Below are positions 13,197 through 32,858 of a stretch of DNA of 49,238 nt, piece by piece. The notes beneath the pieces are model-generated. The model worked only from the letters and a program-made list of their open reading frames with translations. It had not been told where the DNA came from and did not search any database. The DNA comes from a virus. The stretch spans positions 1-49,238 of IMG/VR virus record IMGVR_UViG_3300050821_002519; one strand, 5' to 3'. The stretch's first letter is position 1. Each line of letters opens with the position of its first letter. Made by a program: the position numbers and the translations under genes.

Positions 13197-16100
13197 ATGG
13201 CAGACCCGAACGGCATAGTGGCGCGCACGGTCGCCGCGCTGCGCTATGCCTGGACGGGCAACATGGATTGGTTCGGCCCGCTCGATCCCTTGCCTGATCA
13301 GGCACCCCCTGAGGTCAAGGGTCGCGCCTGGGACTACCCGGTCGGCTCGAACCTCAATTACGTACCGCGCAAAGCGGAGCCTATCAGCTTCCACAAGCTG
13401 AAGAACCTCGCCAACAACTGCGGCCCATTGAAGCTTGTCATGGGCCGCCAGCGCGATCTCGTGAAGGCGCTGGAATGGTCGATCAAGCCCAAGGCAAAGC
13501 AGGCCAAGGGCGCCGCGATCGATCCGCAGATCGCGGCCATCACGGCGATCCTCGAATATCCCGATCGCGAACATGATTGGTCACAGTGGATCAACGGGTT
13601 CCTCGACCAGCTATTCGTGATCGACGCGCTGACGATCTACCCGCGCAAGACGCGCGGCGGCGATCTCTACGCGCTCGAACTGATCGACGGCGCGACCATC
13701 ACGCCGCTCATCGATTCAAGCGGTCGCCGGCCGGTGGCGCCGGACGAAGCCTATCAGCAGATCCTCAAGGGGCTGCCGGCGGTTCATTATTCGACCGACG
13801 AGATCATCTATTACCCGGAGAATTACCGGGTCGATCGCATCTACGGCTACAGCCGCGTCGAGATGCTGGTCGACGAGGTCGAGACCATGATCGCGCGCCT
13901 GAAGAGCCAGAAAGGGTTCTTCGAGCGCGGCAACATCGGCAAGGGCTTCTTTGAGGCACCACCGACCTACAACCCGGACCAGACCAAGGCGCTTGAGACG
14001 CATTGGAACGCGCTCATGTCGTCGGACGGCGGGCGCCGTCTGGCCGATCAGAACCAAGTACCCTGGGTGCCCAGCGGAACGAAGTTCAACGAGACGAAGA
14101 TCGACATCTTCGAGCCAGCCTTCGACGAATGGCTGATCCGCCTGATCTGCTTCCTGTTCGACGTCGCGCCGACCCCGTTCCTCAAGCAGGCCGGACTCGG
14201 TCACGGCAGTGCCACCACCGACAAGGAGGCATCGGAAGAAGGCGGCATCGCGCAGCTGAAGCAGTTGATTCGTCGGCTGATGAACCGCATCCTCGCAGTC
14301 CATTTCCAGCGCCCCGATCTCGAATTTGCGTGGCAGGAAGACAACGAACCTGACCCGAAGACTGCTGCGGATATCGCCAACACCCGCCTTCGCAACGGCT
14401 CGCTGACGATCAATCGCTACCTCGATCGCATGGGTGAAGACCGGATCGAGGGCGGCGACGATGCGCTGATCTACACCGCGACCGGCGCTGTGAAGCTGGC
14501 CGATGTCATCGACCCGCCACCTCCGCCTCCACCGTCCGTGCAATTGGTGCCGGGGCAGGATGCCGACGCGATCGACGACAAGACGCCTGCCAATGACGAC
14601 GGGCCGCCAGGAAAACTCGCCAAGGAAGCCGGTGGCGACGACCAGGCTAAATTCACCAACCTTATCGCCTCGTATCTGTCGAAGCGCGGGGCCATCATCG
14701 CCAAGCAGATCGCCGACGCACTGGGCATCGCGACACCGGACGCAGCTGCCATCGCGAATGCGCTCGATGGCGTCGATTGGGATTGGTCGGACCTCGCCGA
14801 CTCCGCCGAGACGATCCTTTCCGGCATCGCTGTCTCAGCCGGCACCGAAGCGGTCTCAAAGCTCGGACTTTTCGATAAGGACACGCTGGCCAAGGTCAGC
14901 GAGCGCGCGACAGCCTATGCCGCCGACCGCGCCGCCGAACTGGTCGGCATGAAGGTTGTCGATGGCGAACTCGTCGATAATCCTGATGCGGCCTGGTCGA
15001 TTTCATCGGCGACCCGCGACATGCTGCGCGGCACGATCACCAATGCGGTGGAGGCCGGCGCATCGAACGACACGCTGGCGAAGGACATCGCGGACTCTGC
15101 GGCTTTCTCCCGCGAGCGGGCAATGACGATCGCGCGCACCGAGACCGCCAAGGCCGACGTGCAGGGTTCGCGCGCGGGCTGGAAGGTAAGCGGCCTCGTC
15201 GCCGGCCGCCAATGGCTCGCGGGCGATGGCTGCTGCGACGAGTGCCAAGCGCTCGACGGCGAGATTGTCGGCATCGACGAGGAATTCCCCGACGGCGATG
15301 CCCCGCTTCACCCGAACTGTCTACCTGGGGACAGCCTTGTAGCGGCCTGTGGCGACATCTCGGGCGTTAGTCAGCGCTGGTATGATGGTGATCTCGTCGT
15401 CATCAATACTGCCGCTGGCCATCATCTCTCCTGCACCCCGAACCACCCGGTACTCACGTCGAGCGGATGGGTCGCGGCTCGCCACCTCGATCTTGGTGGC
15501 GACGTAATCAGCTGTCGCCTCGGTGATGGGATAACCATCGATGGCGGCGACCACGAGAATATGCCAGCCCGCATCGAGGATGTAGCGGAAGCGTTCCGCC
15601 GTTCGGAGCAGGTGGCGGCCGTGCCAGTGCCAGTGTCCGCCGAAGACTTCCACGGCGACGGGAAAAGCTCCGAGGTCGCAATTATATGGACCGATCGCGC
15701 ATTGCGGCACGACGCCAATGCCACGATCTGCAAGCATTGCGGCAAGGACCTTCTCGTTGTCCGAGACGTGGAGTTTGCGGCTCATCACAGTTCTGGCGCG
15801 CCGAACCTTCTCGTCGATCGAGTGCGTGCGCCCGGTCGCGGCGGCGTGGGCAGCCTCGACCTGGGCGCGGCGACGTTCGGGGCTCATGCTTTCCCAGGCG
15901 AGGCGCCTGGCGTCGCTCATACTGCGCCGAGCGATGCCCCGCGCTGCCAGAATGCGCGAGATGACGCTGCGGGAGACCCCGAAGTCTTTGGCGATGCGTT
16001 GTTCAGCGCCCCCGGCGAGGTACGCAATGGCAATCGCTTGCTCGTCGACGGTGGTTCGGGGTCGGATAGCAACACCAGCCTTGGTAAGGGCGCTTCTTAC

Positions 16101-16484
16101 GACGCGGTTGCTGACCCCGAGTTTGCCGCAAATCCCCGCGACATCGTCGCCACCTTCGTAAAGGCGGACAGCCTCAGCCTTGATAGTCCCGGGAGTCTTG
16201 GGGCGTCCGAGATCGCCGCGCTCGCGCAGGGCGCGCGAGACAGCGCTCATGGAAAACCCGAACTCAGCGCCGACTTCAGCAAGGGTTTTCCCGGACCAGT
16301 ATTCGTTGACCATATTGTCAATGTAGCTCGCCATCAATTTTCTGGGCACGTCTATAACCTTGATACAGCAGGAGGTTATTACATAGCCGAGGGCATTGTA
16401 ACGCACAACTGCGAATGCACAGAGCTAGCCGTGCTTCCCGAAGACATGCCCGACGGCGCGGAGAGCGCCGAGACCGACGACTGA
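13197..16484 (+). CDS. Portal-MuF fusion protein interrupted by an intein
   Basis: 1095-residue precursor. Residues 1 to about 440 are an HK97-type portal (IYYPENYRVDRIYGYSRVEM, AGLGHGSATTDKEASEEGG). A Pro-rich linker near 440-450 leads to a helical region and a MuF head-morphogenesis domain (ARTETAKADVQGSRAGW, CCDECQALDGEIV, PLHPN). The MuF HPN-CxC motif is split: Cys708 starts an intein and Asn1071 ends it, with Cys1072 (CECTEL) as the +1 residue. Splicing would yield a 731-residue portal-MuF protein for the head vertex. Because the host motif is essential, inefficient splicing would cost the phage its head. Confidence 0.93.
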   Translation: MADPNGIVARTVAALRYAWTGNMDWFGPLDPLPDQAPPEVKGRAWDYPVGSNLNYVPRKAEPISFHKLKNLANNCGPLKLVMGRQRDLVKALEWSIKPKAKQAKGAAIDPQIAAITAILEYPDREHDWSQWINGFLDQLFVIDALTIYPRKTRGGDLYALELIDGATITPLIDSSGRRPVAPDEAYQQILKGLPAVHYSTDEIIYYPENYRVDRIYGYSRVEMLVDEVETMIARLKSQKGFFERGNIGKGFFEAPPTYNPDQTKALETHWNALMSSDGGRRLADQNQVPWVPSGTKFNETKIDIFEPAFDEWLIRLICFLFDVAPTPFLKQAGLGHGSATTDKEASEEGGIAQLKQLIRRLMNRILAVHFQRPDLEFAWQEDNEPDPKTAADIANTRLRNGSLTINRYLDRMGEDRIEGGDDALIYTATGAVKLADVIDPPPPPPPSVQLVPGQDADAIDDKTPANDDGPPGKLAKEAGGDDQAKFTNLIASYLSKRGAIIAKQIADALGIATPDAAAIANALDGVDWDWSDLADSAETILSGIAVSAGTEAVSKLGLFDKDTLAKVSERATAYAADRAAELVGMKVVDGELVDNPDAAWSISSATRDMLRGTITNAVEAGASNDTLAKDIADSAAFSRERAMTIARTETAKADVQGSRAGWKVSGLVAGRQWLAGDGCCDECQALDGEIVGIDEEFPDGDAPLHPNCLPGDSLVAACGDISGVSQRWYDGDLVVINTAAGHHLSCTPNHPVLTSSGWVAARHLDLGGDVISCRLGDGITIDGGDHENMPARIEDVAEAFRRSEQVAAVPVPVSAEDFHGDGKSSEVAIIWTDRALRHDANATICKHCGKDLLVVRDVEFAAHHSSGAPNLLVDRVRAPGRGGVGSLDLGAATFGAHAFPGEAPGVAHTAPSDAPRCQNARDDAAGDPEVFGDALFSAPGEVRNGNRLLVDGGSGSDSNTSLGKGASYDAVADPEFAANPRDIVATFVKADSLSLDSPGSLGASEIAALAQGARDSAHGKPELSADFSKGFPGPVFVDHIVNVARHQFSGHVYNLDTAGGYYIAEGIVTHNCECTELAVLPEDMPDGAESAETDD
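15318..16409 (+). mobile_element. Intein in the MuF domain
   Basis: 364 codons. Block A is CLPGDSLVAA with the nucleophile Cys1. Block B is SCTPNHPVLTSSGWV, with the TxxH motif at T40-H43. Blocks F and G are GHVYNLDTAGGYYIAEG and IVTHN, ending in the His-Asn pair before Cys+1. Splicing blocks account for roughly 90 N-terminal and 45 C-terminal residues. The 230 residues between them show no LAGLIDADG or HNH motif in this frame, are Gly/Ala/Asp-rich, and coincide with an opposite-strand endonuclease gene. Confidence 0.92.
15321..16334 (-). CDS. Homing endonuclease (HTH repeats plus EDxHD/Vsr-like domain), antisense inside the intein
   Basis: 337 residues from ATG 16334; the frame is open to 16406. 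GTG 16349 with AAGG upstream is an alternative start. Three helix-turn-helix units lie in the N-terminal half (LAEVGAEFGFSMSAVSRAL, VAGICGKLGVSNRVVRSAL, QRIAKDFGVSRSVISRIL). About residues 195-275 form a Vsr-like nuclease: NEKVLAAML, GPYNCDLG, VAVEVFGGHWHWH, LDAGWHILVV. The tail has EYRVVRGAGE, seen in related phage nucleases. This matches the EDxHD homing endonucleases described with split inteins. The stop codon is the complement of intein codon 2, so the frame fills the intein exactly. No convincing promoter was found. Confidence 0.85.
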   Translation of the reverse strand: MASYIDNMVNEYWSGKTLAEVGAEFGFSMSAVSRALRERGDLGRPKTPGTIKAEAVRLYEGGDDVAGICGKLGVSNRVVRSALTKAGVAIRPRTTVDEQAIAIAYLAGGAEQRIAKDFGVSRSVISRILAARGIARRSMSDARRLAWESMSPERRRAQVEAAHAAATGRTHSIDEKVRRARTVMSRKLHVSDNEKVLAAMLADRGIGVVPQCAIGPYNCDLGAFPVAVEVFGGHWHWHGRHLLRTAERFRYILDAGWHILVVAAIDGYPITEATADYVATKIEVASRDPSARREYRVVRGAGEMMASGSIDDDEITIIPALTNARDVATGRYKAVPR

Positions 16485-26782: not shown

Positions 26783-27520
26783 ATGCGTCGCGCGGTTGCC
26801 TTGTTGCCGTTTCTGGTTCTCTCGACCGCAGCGTCCAGGCAGCAGGCCCCGATTGATCCCGGCCCAGCGCCGACGTGGCAGGACGGCGTCTCGCTGACCG
26901 AGGCGTCATTGAAGGCCACGTTGATCGATCCAGATTCGGCGCACATCGAATGGCCGTACGATTTTACAGGCGGCACGTTGAAGGCGATGTTCGGGAAGAC
27001 GCGTCCCGGATGGTTCACCTGCGGCCGGGTCAACGCGAAGAACCGGATGGGGGGCTATACGGGACGCTCATGGTTTCTTGTCGAAATCTACCAGGGCGCC
27101 GTGACGCAACTCGACATTGGCAACGGCGACCAGATCGATGTTGCATCAGTCGAATGCGAACAACTGCTGAAAAAGGGCATGCTACGCCCCGCCCCGACGA
27201 GCGCGGGGGTCTCGACTTCGGCGGCAGCGCCATCGCCTTCTCAATATGCAGCAGCGGCTAGCGCCAACGCGCAGGTCGCCATGGCGCGTGGTGGACTCGG
27301 TATCTCGTTCGCCCCGTCTCCGGTCGGCGCCACCCTCATGGCCGTCGCGCCGGGTTCGCCAGCGGAGAAAGCCGGACTCAAGCCGGGTGAGACGATCGAC
27401 GCGTTAAACGGCATTTCCCTTAAAGGAATGTCAGCCTCGACGATGATCGAGGTGCTGCACAATGCGCCGGCGAGCGTGACGGTTTCGGTCGTCGGTGTCG
27501 GCGAGGTGAAGGTGCGCTGA
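26783..27520 (+). CDS. Exported PDZ-domain protein (moron candidate)
   Basis: 245 residues. The N-terminus (MRRAVALLPFLVLSTAAS) is a signal peptide with cleavage expected near residue 17-20 and no lipobox. Residues about 38-125 form a domain with LIDPDSAHIEWP, FTCGRVNAKNRMGGYTG and VECEQLL, a pattern I recognise from small secreted bacterial proteins. After a Ser/Ala linker a PDZ domain occupies about 165-245 (GLGISFAP, VAPGSPAEKAGLKPGETIDA). It should act in the periplasm. It is unlike its tail-gene neighbours and has its own promoter, so a lysogenic conversion role is plausible but unproven. Confidence 0.78.
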   Translation: MRRAVALLPFLVLSTAASRQQAPIDPGPAPTWQDGVSLTEASLKATLIDPDSAHIEWPYDFTGGTLKAMFGKTRPGWFTCGRVNAKNRMGGYTGRSWFLVEIYQGAVTQLDIGNGDQIDVASVECEQLLKKGMLRPAPTSAGVSTSAAAPSPSQYAAAASANAQVAMARGGLGISFAPSPVGATLMAVAPGSPAEKAGLKPGETIDALNGISLKGMSASTMIEVLHNAPASVTVSVVGVGEVKVR

Positions 27521-29894: not shown

Positions 29895-32858
29895 GTGGGC
29901 GGCAAAACCACCTCCACCTCATCGCCCAAGCTCAACCAGATGTCGGTCCAGTCGTCGTCGCTGGGCCTGCCGATCACGCTCGGCTGGGGACGTGGGCGGG
30001 CAAAGTGCAACCTCGGTGATTATGTCGCCTTCAAAGCGACCGCACACACCACGACGACCAGCGCGGGCAAGGGCCTCGGTGGCGGGTCGAAGGACACGAC
30101 CTACACCTATACCGCGTCGATCATCATGCACATCTGCGAAGGCCCGATCCTCGGCATTCGCACCGTATACCGCGACACCTCGGTCTTCACCGACGGCGCT
30201 ACCACCGCGCTGGCGCAGGCTGGTCTTAGCGTTGCGCTCGGCTCGCCGACGCAATCGCCATGGTCGTACATGGTCTCGCAGTTTCCGACCCATGCGCTGG
30301 CCTATTCGGGCATCGCCTATGTGTACGCGCAGGACTATGCGCTCGGCGACAGCGCAACGCTGTCCAACCACAGCTTCGAGATTGATTTCGAGATCCAACT
30401 GGGCGGCGGCGTCCCAGATGCCGACCCCAAAGACATTCTCACCGATTTCCTGACCAGCGCGTCGCACGGCGTGCCCGGCTGGGGTGCTGGCCTCATCGGC
30501 GATCTCTCCGACTGGTCGCTCTATTGCCGCGCGAACAACCTGCTGCTGTCGCCGGTCCTGGAATCGCAGGCGGCCGCCAACACCATCATTACCGAATGGT
30601 GTCTCGCCACCAACTCGGCGCCGTTCTGGTCGGAGGGCGTGCTGAAGGTCCGCCCCTATGGCGATACTGCGGCGACCGGCAACGGCGTGACGTGGACGCC
30701 GAACCTGACCCCGATCTACGACCTCACCGAGGACGATTTCGAGGCGTCCGATACAGGCCCCGTGGTGCTCGACATCGTCGACCAGTCCGACGCCTACAAC
30801 ATCGTCCAGCTCGAATTCCTCGACCGTGCCAACCAGTACAATGTCGGCATCGCGACGGCCTCCGACCTCGCCAACATCTTCGAGTACGGCGCGCGCAAGC
30901 AGGATCCGACCACGGTCCATTCGATCGTGGATGCCGGGATCGCGCAGCACGCGGCGCAGCTTTATCTCCAGCGCGTCCTCTATGTCCGCGAGCAATATCT
31001 GTTCACGCTGCCGTGGAATTTCGTGCTGCTCGAGCCGTGCGATTATCTGTCGCTGACGACCACGACCGACGAGTTGCAACTGGACAATCTGCTGGTCCGC
31101 GTCGTCGAGATCGACGAGGACGAAAACGGGATGCTCGCCTTCACCTGCGAGGGCGTGCCGGGCGGTGCCGCATCGGCCGCGCTCTATGCCTCGCACTCGT
31201 CGGGCGGCCACCAAACGAACGCCGATGTCCCGCCTGGCCCGGTCTCGACGCCGGTCCTGATCAATGCCCCGACATCGCTCACCGGCGGCGATCCCGAGGT
31301 TTGGTGCGCCGTCGCCTCGTCCTCGACGACATGGGGCGGCTGCGAGGTCTGGATCAGCGTCGACAATGTCTCCTATGCGCGGGTCGGCGTCATCGAAGGT
31401 CCGGCGCGCTACGGTGTTCTGACGGCGGCGCTCGCCAACCATGCCGACCCCGATACGACCAACACGCTGTCGGTCGACCTGTCATCATCACTGGGCACGC
31501 TCGGCAGCGCGACGGCGACCGAGGCCAATGCCGGCGGCTCGCTGTGCCTCGTCGGCAACGAACTCATCACATATCAGACCGCGACCCTCACCGGCGCTAA
31601 CGCCTATAACCTGACGACGCTGCGCCGCGGTTTCGAAGCGACGATCCCGGCCTCGCACAGCGTCGGCGCCGAGTTCGTCCGCCTCGACGATGCGATCTTC
31701 AAGTTCAGCTATGCGAGCCTCAACGTCGGCTCGACGATCTATGTGAAATTTCCGTCGTTCAATATCTTCGACCGCGCGCCTGAAGATCTGTCGACGGTGA
31801 CGGCCTATACCGTGGCGCTCGCACCGGCGACCGCGCTGCCGGATTCCGTCACCGGTCTAGCGCTTGCCCATAGCTGGGACGGTTCAGCCCTGTCGGTGGT
31901 CTGCGACCCGTCGGCGCGCGCGATCTCGTACAAGTTCCGCTTCTACCTGCCCGATGAAACGACGCTCAAGCGCGAGATCGTCACCACGACGCCGGCCGCG
32001 ACTTACACCTCGACGCTGGCGGCGCAGGACGGTGCGGCGCGGGCCTATCACATCGAGGTGATCGCTTCGAACGATGCCGGCGATGCGGCCCCGTCGTCAT
32101 GGCTATCGGTCACCAACGCCGCGCCGGCGACGCTCAGCGGTGTTGCCACCTCCGGCACGACCGCGACCGATGGCGCCGTCACCTGCACCGCATCGTCCGA
32201 CCCTGACCTAGCCGGCTACGTCGTCTTCTATTCCGGCACATCTGGGTTCGACCCATCTACCAGCGGCGGCGTCGTCAGTTCCGGCATTCCGTCGGTCTCA
32301 ATCTTCGGGCTGGCAGCCGGCACCTATTACGCCCGCATCGCCGCCTATGACGGCTGGACCGGCGTTCCGTCGCTGCTCAATCTGTCGAGCGAGGTCAGCT
32401 TCACGATCTCGACGGGTGGTGGGGCGGCTCCATCTGGCGGTGGCACAGGTGGTGGCGGCTGGGGCGGCGCGTGCTGCACGCTCGAAACGCTGATCCAGAT
32501 GGCGAACGATGGGCGTACCGGGCCGGGGAGCTGGAAACGTGGCGGCGATGTCGTGCCCGGTGACTGGGTCTGGACGCAGCACGAGCGGACGCTGGCCTGG
32601 GGCGCTTATCAGGTGACGTTTGCGCAGACGCTGGAGCGCCCGATCTGGTCGCTGTCCGGCTATCCCGATGCGACCGCAGAGCATCCGTTCTGGATCACCG
32701 GCACCGGGTGGGTCTTGATGGGCGACATCGGCACGCCGGCCGGGACCGCAGCGATCCGCCACCTGACCGTCGACCGCGCCCATACCTACGTCGCCCGCCA
32801 TCCCGACGCGGACGTCGGCATCCTCTCGCACAACAAGCGCTCGACGCCTGACGGCTAA
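29895..32858 (+). CDS. Tail-tip host-specificity protein (gp15/J-like) with C-terminal Hint domain
   Basis: 987 residues from GTG 29895. The first about 450 residues follow the GTA gp15 / J-like pattern (PITLGWGRGRAKCN, CEGPILGIRTVYRD, WCLATNSAPFWSEG, TEDDFEASDTGPVV). Then come fibronectin-like beta domains, including LDDAIFKFSYA and YTSTLAAQDGAARAYHIEV, and a Gly-rich hinge. Residues 860-987 are an intein-like Hint domain. The main body would form the tail tip that contacts the host surface. Confidence 0.87.
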   Translation: MGGKTTSTSSPKLNQMSVQSSSLGLPITLGWGRGRAKCNLGDYVAFKATAHTTTTSAGKGLGGGSKDTTYTYTASIIMHICEGPILGIRTVYRDTSVFTDGATTALAQAGLSVALGSPTQSPWSYMVSQFPTHALAYSGIAYVYAQDYALGDSATLSNHSFEIDFEIQLGGGVPDADPKDILTDFLTSASHGVPGWGAGLIGDLSDWSLYCRANNLLLSPVLESQAAANTIITEWCLATNSAPFWSEGVLKVRPYGDTAATGNGVTWTPNLTPIYDLTEDDFEASDTGPVVLDIVDQSDAYNIVQLEFLDRANQYNVGIATASDLANIFEYGARKQDPTTVHSIVDAGIAQHAAQLYLQRVLYVREQYLFTLPWNFVLLEPCDYLSLTTTTDELQLDNLLVRVVEIDEDENGMLAFTCEGVPGGAASAALYASHSSGGHQTNADVPPGPVSTPVLINAPTSLTGGDPEVWCAVASSSTTWGGCEVWISVDNVSYARVGVIEGPARYGVLTAALANHADPDTTNTLSVDLSSSLGTLGSATATEANAGGSLCLVGNELITYQTATLTGANAYNLTTLRRGFEATIPASHSVGAEFVRLDDAIFKFSYASLNVGSTIYVKFPSFNIFDRAPEDLSTVTAYTVALAPATALPDSVTGLALAHSWDGSALSVVCDPSARAISYKFRFYLPDETTLKREIVTTTPAATYTSTLAAQDGAARAYHIEVIASNDAGDAAPSSWLSVTNAAPATLSGVATSGTTATDGAVTCTASSDPDLAGYVVFYSGTSGFDPSTSGGVVSSGIPSVSIFGLAAGTYYARIAAYDGWTGVPSLLNLSSEVSFTISTGGGAAPSGGGTGGGGWGGACCTLETLIQMANDGRTGPGSWKRGGDVVPGDWVWTQHERTLAWGAYQVTFAQTLERPIWSLSGYPDATAEHPFWITGTGWVLMGDIGTPAGTAAIRHLTVDRAHTYVARHPDADVGILSHNKRSTPDG
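32472..32858 (+). other. Hint/BIL-type autoprocessing domain at the protein C-terminus
   Basis: Residues 860-987 begin CCTLETLIQMANDGR (block A-like, tandem Cys), continue with VVPGDWVW, ATAEHPFWITGTGWVLM (block B-like His), VDRAHTYVA and end GILSHNKRSTPDG. His-Asn is present, but the next residue is Lys, not Cys/Ser/Thr, and only seven residues follow. Splicing is therefore unlikely; C-terminal or N-terminal cleavage, as in bacterial intein-like (BIL) domains, is expected. Similar domains are known in phage structural proteins. Confidence 0.78.

Follow-up and report, generated by a model that had tools for sequence, protein, structure and literature searches.

The tail-tip protein of the phage studied here, which is of the siphophage type, ends in a complete Hint domain, probably an A-type bacterial intein-like (BIL) domain. 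The domain is a C-terminal cassette open to exchange, and its self-processing would consist mainly of cleavage at its two ends. The window, i.e., the whole stretch of DNA analysed, is 49,238 nucleotides long and comes from IMG/VR virus record IMGVR_UViG_3300050821_002519. A first-pass annotation had proposed a Hint/BIL-type domain near the end of this protein, with a Cys at its start and a terminal His-Asn followed by Lys and six more residues. The alignment, the structural model and structure comparison bear this out, giving a complete Hint at residues 860–980 of 987, and the open reading frame 29895–32858 reads as described. The codons of Cys861, His979, Asn980 and Lys981 start at positions 32475, 32829, 32832 and 32835, respectively; RSTPDG and the stop codon follow. 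As also annotated, the Hint is the last domain of the protein, with only KRSTPDG beyond Asn980. The features are listed in Table 1.

Table 1. Features of the tail-tip gene and its C-terminal Hint domain (positions in the window).
Feature	Position	Strand	Basis
Tail-tip (megatron/J-like) protein gene, 987 aa	29895..32858	+	Pfam and PHROG matches
Gly-rich linker STGGGAAPSGGGTGGGGWGGA, end of the N-extein	32409..32471	+	Common to Hint-less orthologs, which stop 4–9 residues past the linker
Hint domain, probably A-type BIL, residues 860–980 (121 aa)	32472..32834	+	Family alignment, AlphaFold model, Foldseek/VIA, hhalign
Cys860, predicted N-terminal nucleophile, Hint position 1 (Cys861 next)	32472..32474	+	Invariant in alignment
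His930, block B His (TAEH)	32682..32684	+	Invariant in alignment
His979-Asn980, block G, predicted Asn cyclization site	32829..32834	+	Invariant in alignment
Short C-extein KRSTPDG, 7 aa, Lys at +1	32835..32855	+	Relatives: 6–11 aa, Lys at +1/+2

The tail-tip protein matches the Pfam families Phage-tail_3 (PF13550, E 5e-25) and Rcc01698_C (PF23666, E 5.9e-18), the PHROGs tail protein family phrog_1101 (E 1.7e-102) and, more weakly, central tail fiber J (phrog_31, E 1.4e-5). Upstream of its gene lies one that weakly matches NlpC/P60, and downstream a fibre-like one, the arrangement expected of a tail-tip module. The tail gene cluster also encodes a PDZ-domain protein (26783–27520; PDZ_6, E 4e-9), flanked by tape measure and DUF2460 genes, which looks unusual for a phage.

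Searches of the C-terminal 128 residues as a single sequence against Pfam, PHROGs and the PDB did not name the Hint; it was detected only via the alignment, the structural model and the profile. The nearest NCBIfam model, intein_Cterm, scored below the cut-off for the window copy and reached E ≤ 1 in 11 of the 16 members. The 16-row family profile, which includes the window copy among its rows, matches one place in the window with E 2.5e-53 (next best 0.42), a match far beyond chance; the relatives were found independently by tblastn, at 37–54% identity. They comprise 14 loci and four new ones in IMG/VR phage records, along with one GenBank phage record; nearly all members come from IMG/VR phage contigs. 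A search of 398 Pseudomonadota genomes gave no match to the family, but it had no positive control and is uninformative by itself.

In every relative, the Hint makes up the C-terminal end of the reading frame. Blocks A, B, F and G of the Hint superfamily are present, and all 16 aligned members have Cys1, the block-B His and the C-terminal His-Asn without exception. The alignment also shows the motifs WVWTQHE, TxxH, TVxxAHTYV and LSHN. Cys861 is ruled out as Hint position 1, since the ungapped alignment with the relatives places Cys860 there. The Hints are mostly just 30–65% identical between lineages. With dN/dS values of 0.12–0.30 in close pairs, the Hint is under purifying selection among close relatives. 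A divergent, longer Hint (128 aa) is found at locus L057 (2800–6645) on a 1,282-aa tail-tip protein, with a Gly-rich linker and a short MKPRDA tail; this tail-tip gene is followed by a baseplate-hub-like gene in place of the fibre gene.

The AlphaFold2 model of the Hint has a mean pLDDT of 93 and a pTM of 0.86. The best Foldseek match is Tetrahymena BIL2 (6y75, E 2e-6), and C. thermocellum BIL (2lwy) and the Ssp DnaB intein (1mi8) are also among the top matches. The VIA Z-scores are 15.0 for 6y75, 14.2 for 2lwy, 14.8 for 1mi8 and 12.9 for Hedgehog (1at0), the highest being 15.2; the top Foldseek and VIA matches are all Hint domains (BILs, DnaB and other inteins). According to the model, the domain has a Hint fold and belongs to the Hint (Hedgehog/intein) superfamily, and structure comparison of the model groups it with BIL domains and mini-inteins (Z 14–15).

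The peptide after the Asn is short: every relative has six to eleven residues there, and Lys occupies +1 or +2 in each of them. The 14 C-exteins are KRSTPDG, KSVEGLDPDP, IKQFNPNEAEP, YKVQPTL, AKMTEPGV, KRATQEEA, KLAQQDDR, KRADAEAV, IKELEPVE, KEVDPPVGPPV, KRKEPI, IKPIEAP, IKQQEQLQ and MKPRDA. The +1 residue is K, I, Y, A or M and in no case C, S or T. Lys keeps its place at +1/+2 despite a Lys content of 2.3% in these proteins, although the rows are related and do not represent 14 independent events. In the cellular PT-HINT controls, the +1 residue is A, C, D or E, and none has Lys at +1/+2.

A-type BILs retain His-Asn (PMC7765530). The phage domain has the C-terminal His-Asn and lacks a nucleophile at +1; since no member has C, S or T there, this is the arrangement of an A-type BIL and not of a class 1 intein. 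An ordinary class 1 intein is ruled out by Lys981 at +1 and by the same lack throughout the family, and a toxin-delivery PT-HINT by the mere 6–11 residues after the Asn in all members. Like A-type BILs such as that of C. thermocellum, the domain combines the Hint fold, Cys1, the block-B His and His-Asn, has no C/S/T at +1 and occurs in variable host proteins. What sets it apart is its position at the C-terminal end of tail-tip proteins in phages, mostly preceded by a Gly-rich linker, together with the mere 6–11 residues that come after the Asn and the invariable Lys at +1/+2.

Other Hint systems share part of this architecture. The resemblance to PT-HINT (PF07591) of polymorphic toxins is high at the level of profiles (hhalign of the family against a small PT-HINT profile, probability 97.9%, E 3e-13), though a search of 13 members against PF07591 gave no match at E ≤ 1; both have the TAEHPFW and HTY...HN motifs and precede a terminal piece. 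PT-HINT examples, however, mostly have longer C-terminal regions with A, C, D or E at +1, whereas the phage Hint is 12–18 residues shorter and has a short peptide with Lys at +1/+2. In Moraxella (L015, L017), several PT-HINT ends occur per locus, each with a different C-terminal sequence, like a store of alternative tips. Mini-inteins (Ssp and Npu DnaB) resemble the phage Hint in fold (Z 14–15), catalytic residues and presence or absence at a fixed site, but the phage Hint lacks the +1 nucleophile, has a C-extein of 6–11 residues and is inserted near a variable end of the host protein. Tetrahymena BUBL1 BIL2 (6y75, 6tmm) is likewise a BIL with Cys1 and a terminal Asn (entry title C1A-N143A); it belongs to a eukaryotic BUBL locus with another protein context. 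The Hedgehog Hint shares the fold, the C-terminal placement and a thioester ending the N-terminal partner, the last predicted for the phage domain. Hedgehog, however, uses the first acyl shift only and has a sterol-recognition region; no such region follows the phage Hint, which has just seven residues beyond Asn980 and keeps the His-Asn and the tail. The S74 intramolecular autopeptidase domains of tail fibres and spikes (PMC7824862) are also self-detaching terminal domains, as predicted for the phage Hint, but are set apart, according to their description in that paper, by Ser/Lys catalysis and another fold. The open-access literature searched gave no account of intein-like domains that recurrently cap the tail-tip proteins of phages; the Hint of phiCbK is a terminase intein.

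The Hint occupies several unrelated tail proteins and is present or absent among orthologs at a variable C-terminus, as in A-type BILs. Hint-bearing tail proteins fall into phrog_1101, phrog_5616 and phrog_376. The Hints of L030 and L006 are 64% identical, while the cores of these proteins have no BLAST match; conversely, L012 and L025 have cores that are 66% identical and Hints that are 37% identical. In the Hint tree, L012 joins the L013/L014/L077 tail family with support 100/99, and the cores of that family share just about 100 residues with L012. A tree constrained to keep L012 and L025 together was rejected (AU p 8e-8), which makes this pair decisive for Hint exchange. For the window and L030 (Hints 46%, cores 72% identical), the AU p of 0.078 makes exchange within the window's own lineage suggestive only. 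This disagreement between Hint and core relationships indicates that unrelated tail proteins have exchanged the cassette. At L028 (5371–6396), the same Hint cassette follows a Pro-rich and Gly-rich linker on a different tail protein (phrog_376) with an FCCH-like domain.

The conserved residues suggest the following course of processing. After folding, Cys860 would attack the Ala859–Cys860 peptide bond, with His930 helping, and this N–S acyl shift would yield a thioester joining the tail protein and the Hint. Asn980, assisted by His979, would then cyclize, with a cut before Lys981. As the +1 residue is not Cys, Ser or Thr, normal trans-esterification would be missing, and cleavage at both ends would be the main outcome: the Hint and the heptapeptide would leave, and the tail tip would end in the Gly-rich linker. 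BILs lacking the +1 nucleophile are reported to give mostly cleaved products (PMC7664689), which makes cleavage likelier than splicing. Hedgehog-type N-cleavage needs only the initial acyl shift (PMC7664689). That every member has kept His-Asn, and that a peptide bond follows it without exception, is therefore an argument for a reaction on the C-terminal side as well; together with the full Hint active site, this conserved bond speaks for chemistry at both ends. That these reactions take place, in this order, during assembly or on contact with the host, and that the processed end is the functional one, is inferred. Against double cleavage speaks the lack of resemblance between the tails after the Hint and those of Hint-less orthologs: the C-extein could therefore be part of the Hint cassette and not a displaced host C-terminus, and the Hint may be a fixed structural tip.

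Natural orthologs without the Hint exist. In the window's tail family, five of them (L036, L037, L038, L044 and L063) have cores that are 64–66% identical and the same downstream fibre gene family. They share the linker STGGGSTPSGGG...GYSG (GGGYSG/GYEG-like), and the protein stops 4–9 residues later. In a second tail family, Hint-less L073, which ends in GGGGGVPGG-YYQYEYYQ, is an independent Hint-minus counterpart to the Hint-bearing L026, L006 and L002; L026 reads GGGGGGYPGGP-[Hint]-IKELEPVE. The Hint is thus placed between the Gly-rich linker, common to both forms, and a short peptide at the terminus; its removal gives roughly the Hint-less end. The terminal peptides themselves are dissimilar, being K/P/E-rich after the Hint and aromatic or charged in Hint-less proteins (e.g., YYQYEYYQ, RELSF); they may thus be alternative ends and not one displaced C-terminus. 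The core tree is compatible with both gain and loss of the Hint. Three further tail-tip orthologs (L041, L058 and L071) end in long glycine-rich stretches and have no linker-Hint, which points to the tail-tip C-terminus as generally a swapping place.

This placement bears on nucleophile-free splicing, in which the freed amino group would attack the thioester, the Hint would be excised and the linker joined as ...WGGA-KRSTPDG, a product resembling the Hint-less orthologs. The earlier argument that splicing is impossible for want of a C-extein fails: the protein has a C-extein of seven residues, conserved across the family as 6–11 residues that include Lys at +1/+2, and a BIL domain has been recorded to ligate in the absence of nucleophilic side chains (Aranko et al., as cited in PMC7664689). 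The insertion of the Hint 6–11 residues from the end in every relative, the 4–9 residue peptide past the linker in Hint-less orthologs, this ligation precedent and the Lys residues, which would put amines beside the thioester, are all consistent with splicing. It is nevertheless unlikely, given the predominance of cleavage in BILs (PMC7664689) and the difference in terminal peptides between Hint-plus and Hint-minus orthologs. Less probable still is a Hint that remains attached as a tip for structure or binding, with catalytic residues that are relics or are retained for folding. Such a tip would be terminal, as are many receptor-binding tips, and the short tails after the Hint are unlike those of Hint-less orthologs; however, no member has lost Cys1, the block-B His, His-Asn or the short tail, although the Hints of different lineages are mostly just 30–65% identical.

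Acyl transfer by analogy with Hedgehog, where a host envelope amine or hydroxyl, a tail fibre or the C-extein Lys would attack the tail-tip thioester and form a covalent link with a partner, is improbable: Hint chemistry makes a thioester, here ending a flexible linker, and the fold is common to both systems, but a partner or recognition region is not evident, Hedgehog-type chemistry can do without the conserved His-Asn and tail, and Hint-less orthologs retain the same fibre gene family. The C-terminal domain of the related RcGTA megatron is a fibre-binding domain (PMC7296036). This is a point in favour of acyl transfer, and it also makes fibre attachment or tip exposure reasonable places to look for the role of the Hint. 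Equally doubtful is the combined proposal of a mobile BIL cassette traded between unrelated tail-tip proteins whose thioester C-terminus links the tip covalently to the fibre or host envelope with the involvement of the constant Lys.

The first-pass annotation also counted two Hint domains in this phage. A second, unrelated Hint is indeed present, but it is not a second BIL. It is a 364-residue intein-like insertion (residues 708–1071; 15318–16409) in the MuF domain of a portal-MuF fusion (13197–16484), and is most likely the other Hint meant, for which no coordinates had been given. It has Cys1, His-Asn and a +1 Cys, with the junctions HPN|C...THN|CECTEL, and matches Pfam Intein_splicing below the cut-off (E 3.4e-4). 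By its sequence, it looks like a class 1 type intein, and its central region is possibly a decayed endonuclease. As the insertion fits an ordinary intein, the two Hints are of different kinds.

Double cleavage of the tail-tip protein is the preferred reading. That related phages exchange the Hint among unrelated tail-tip proteins, or do without it, suggests a role in trimming or chemically activating the host-facing part of the phage. If the Hint cuts or acylates, a self-contained domain that is mobile among unrelated tail proteins would mature tail tips or arm them chemically, and the natural Hint-plus and Hint-minus pairs provide a direct test. If this is true, these phages would carry a compact set of BILs with very short C-exteins.
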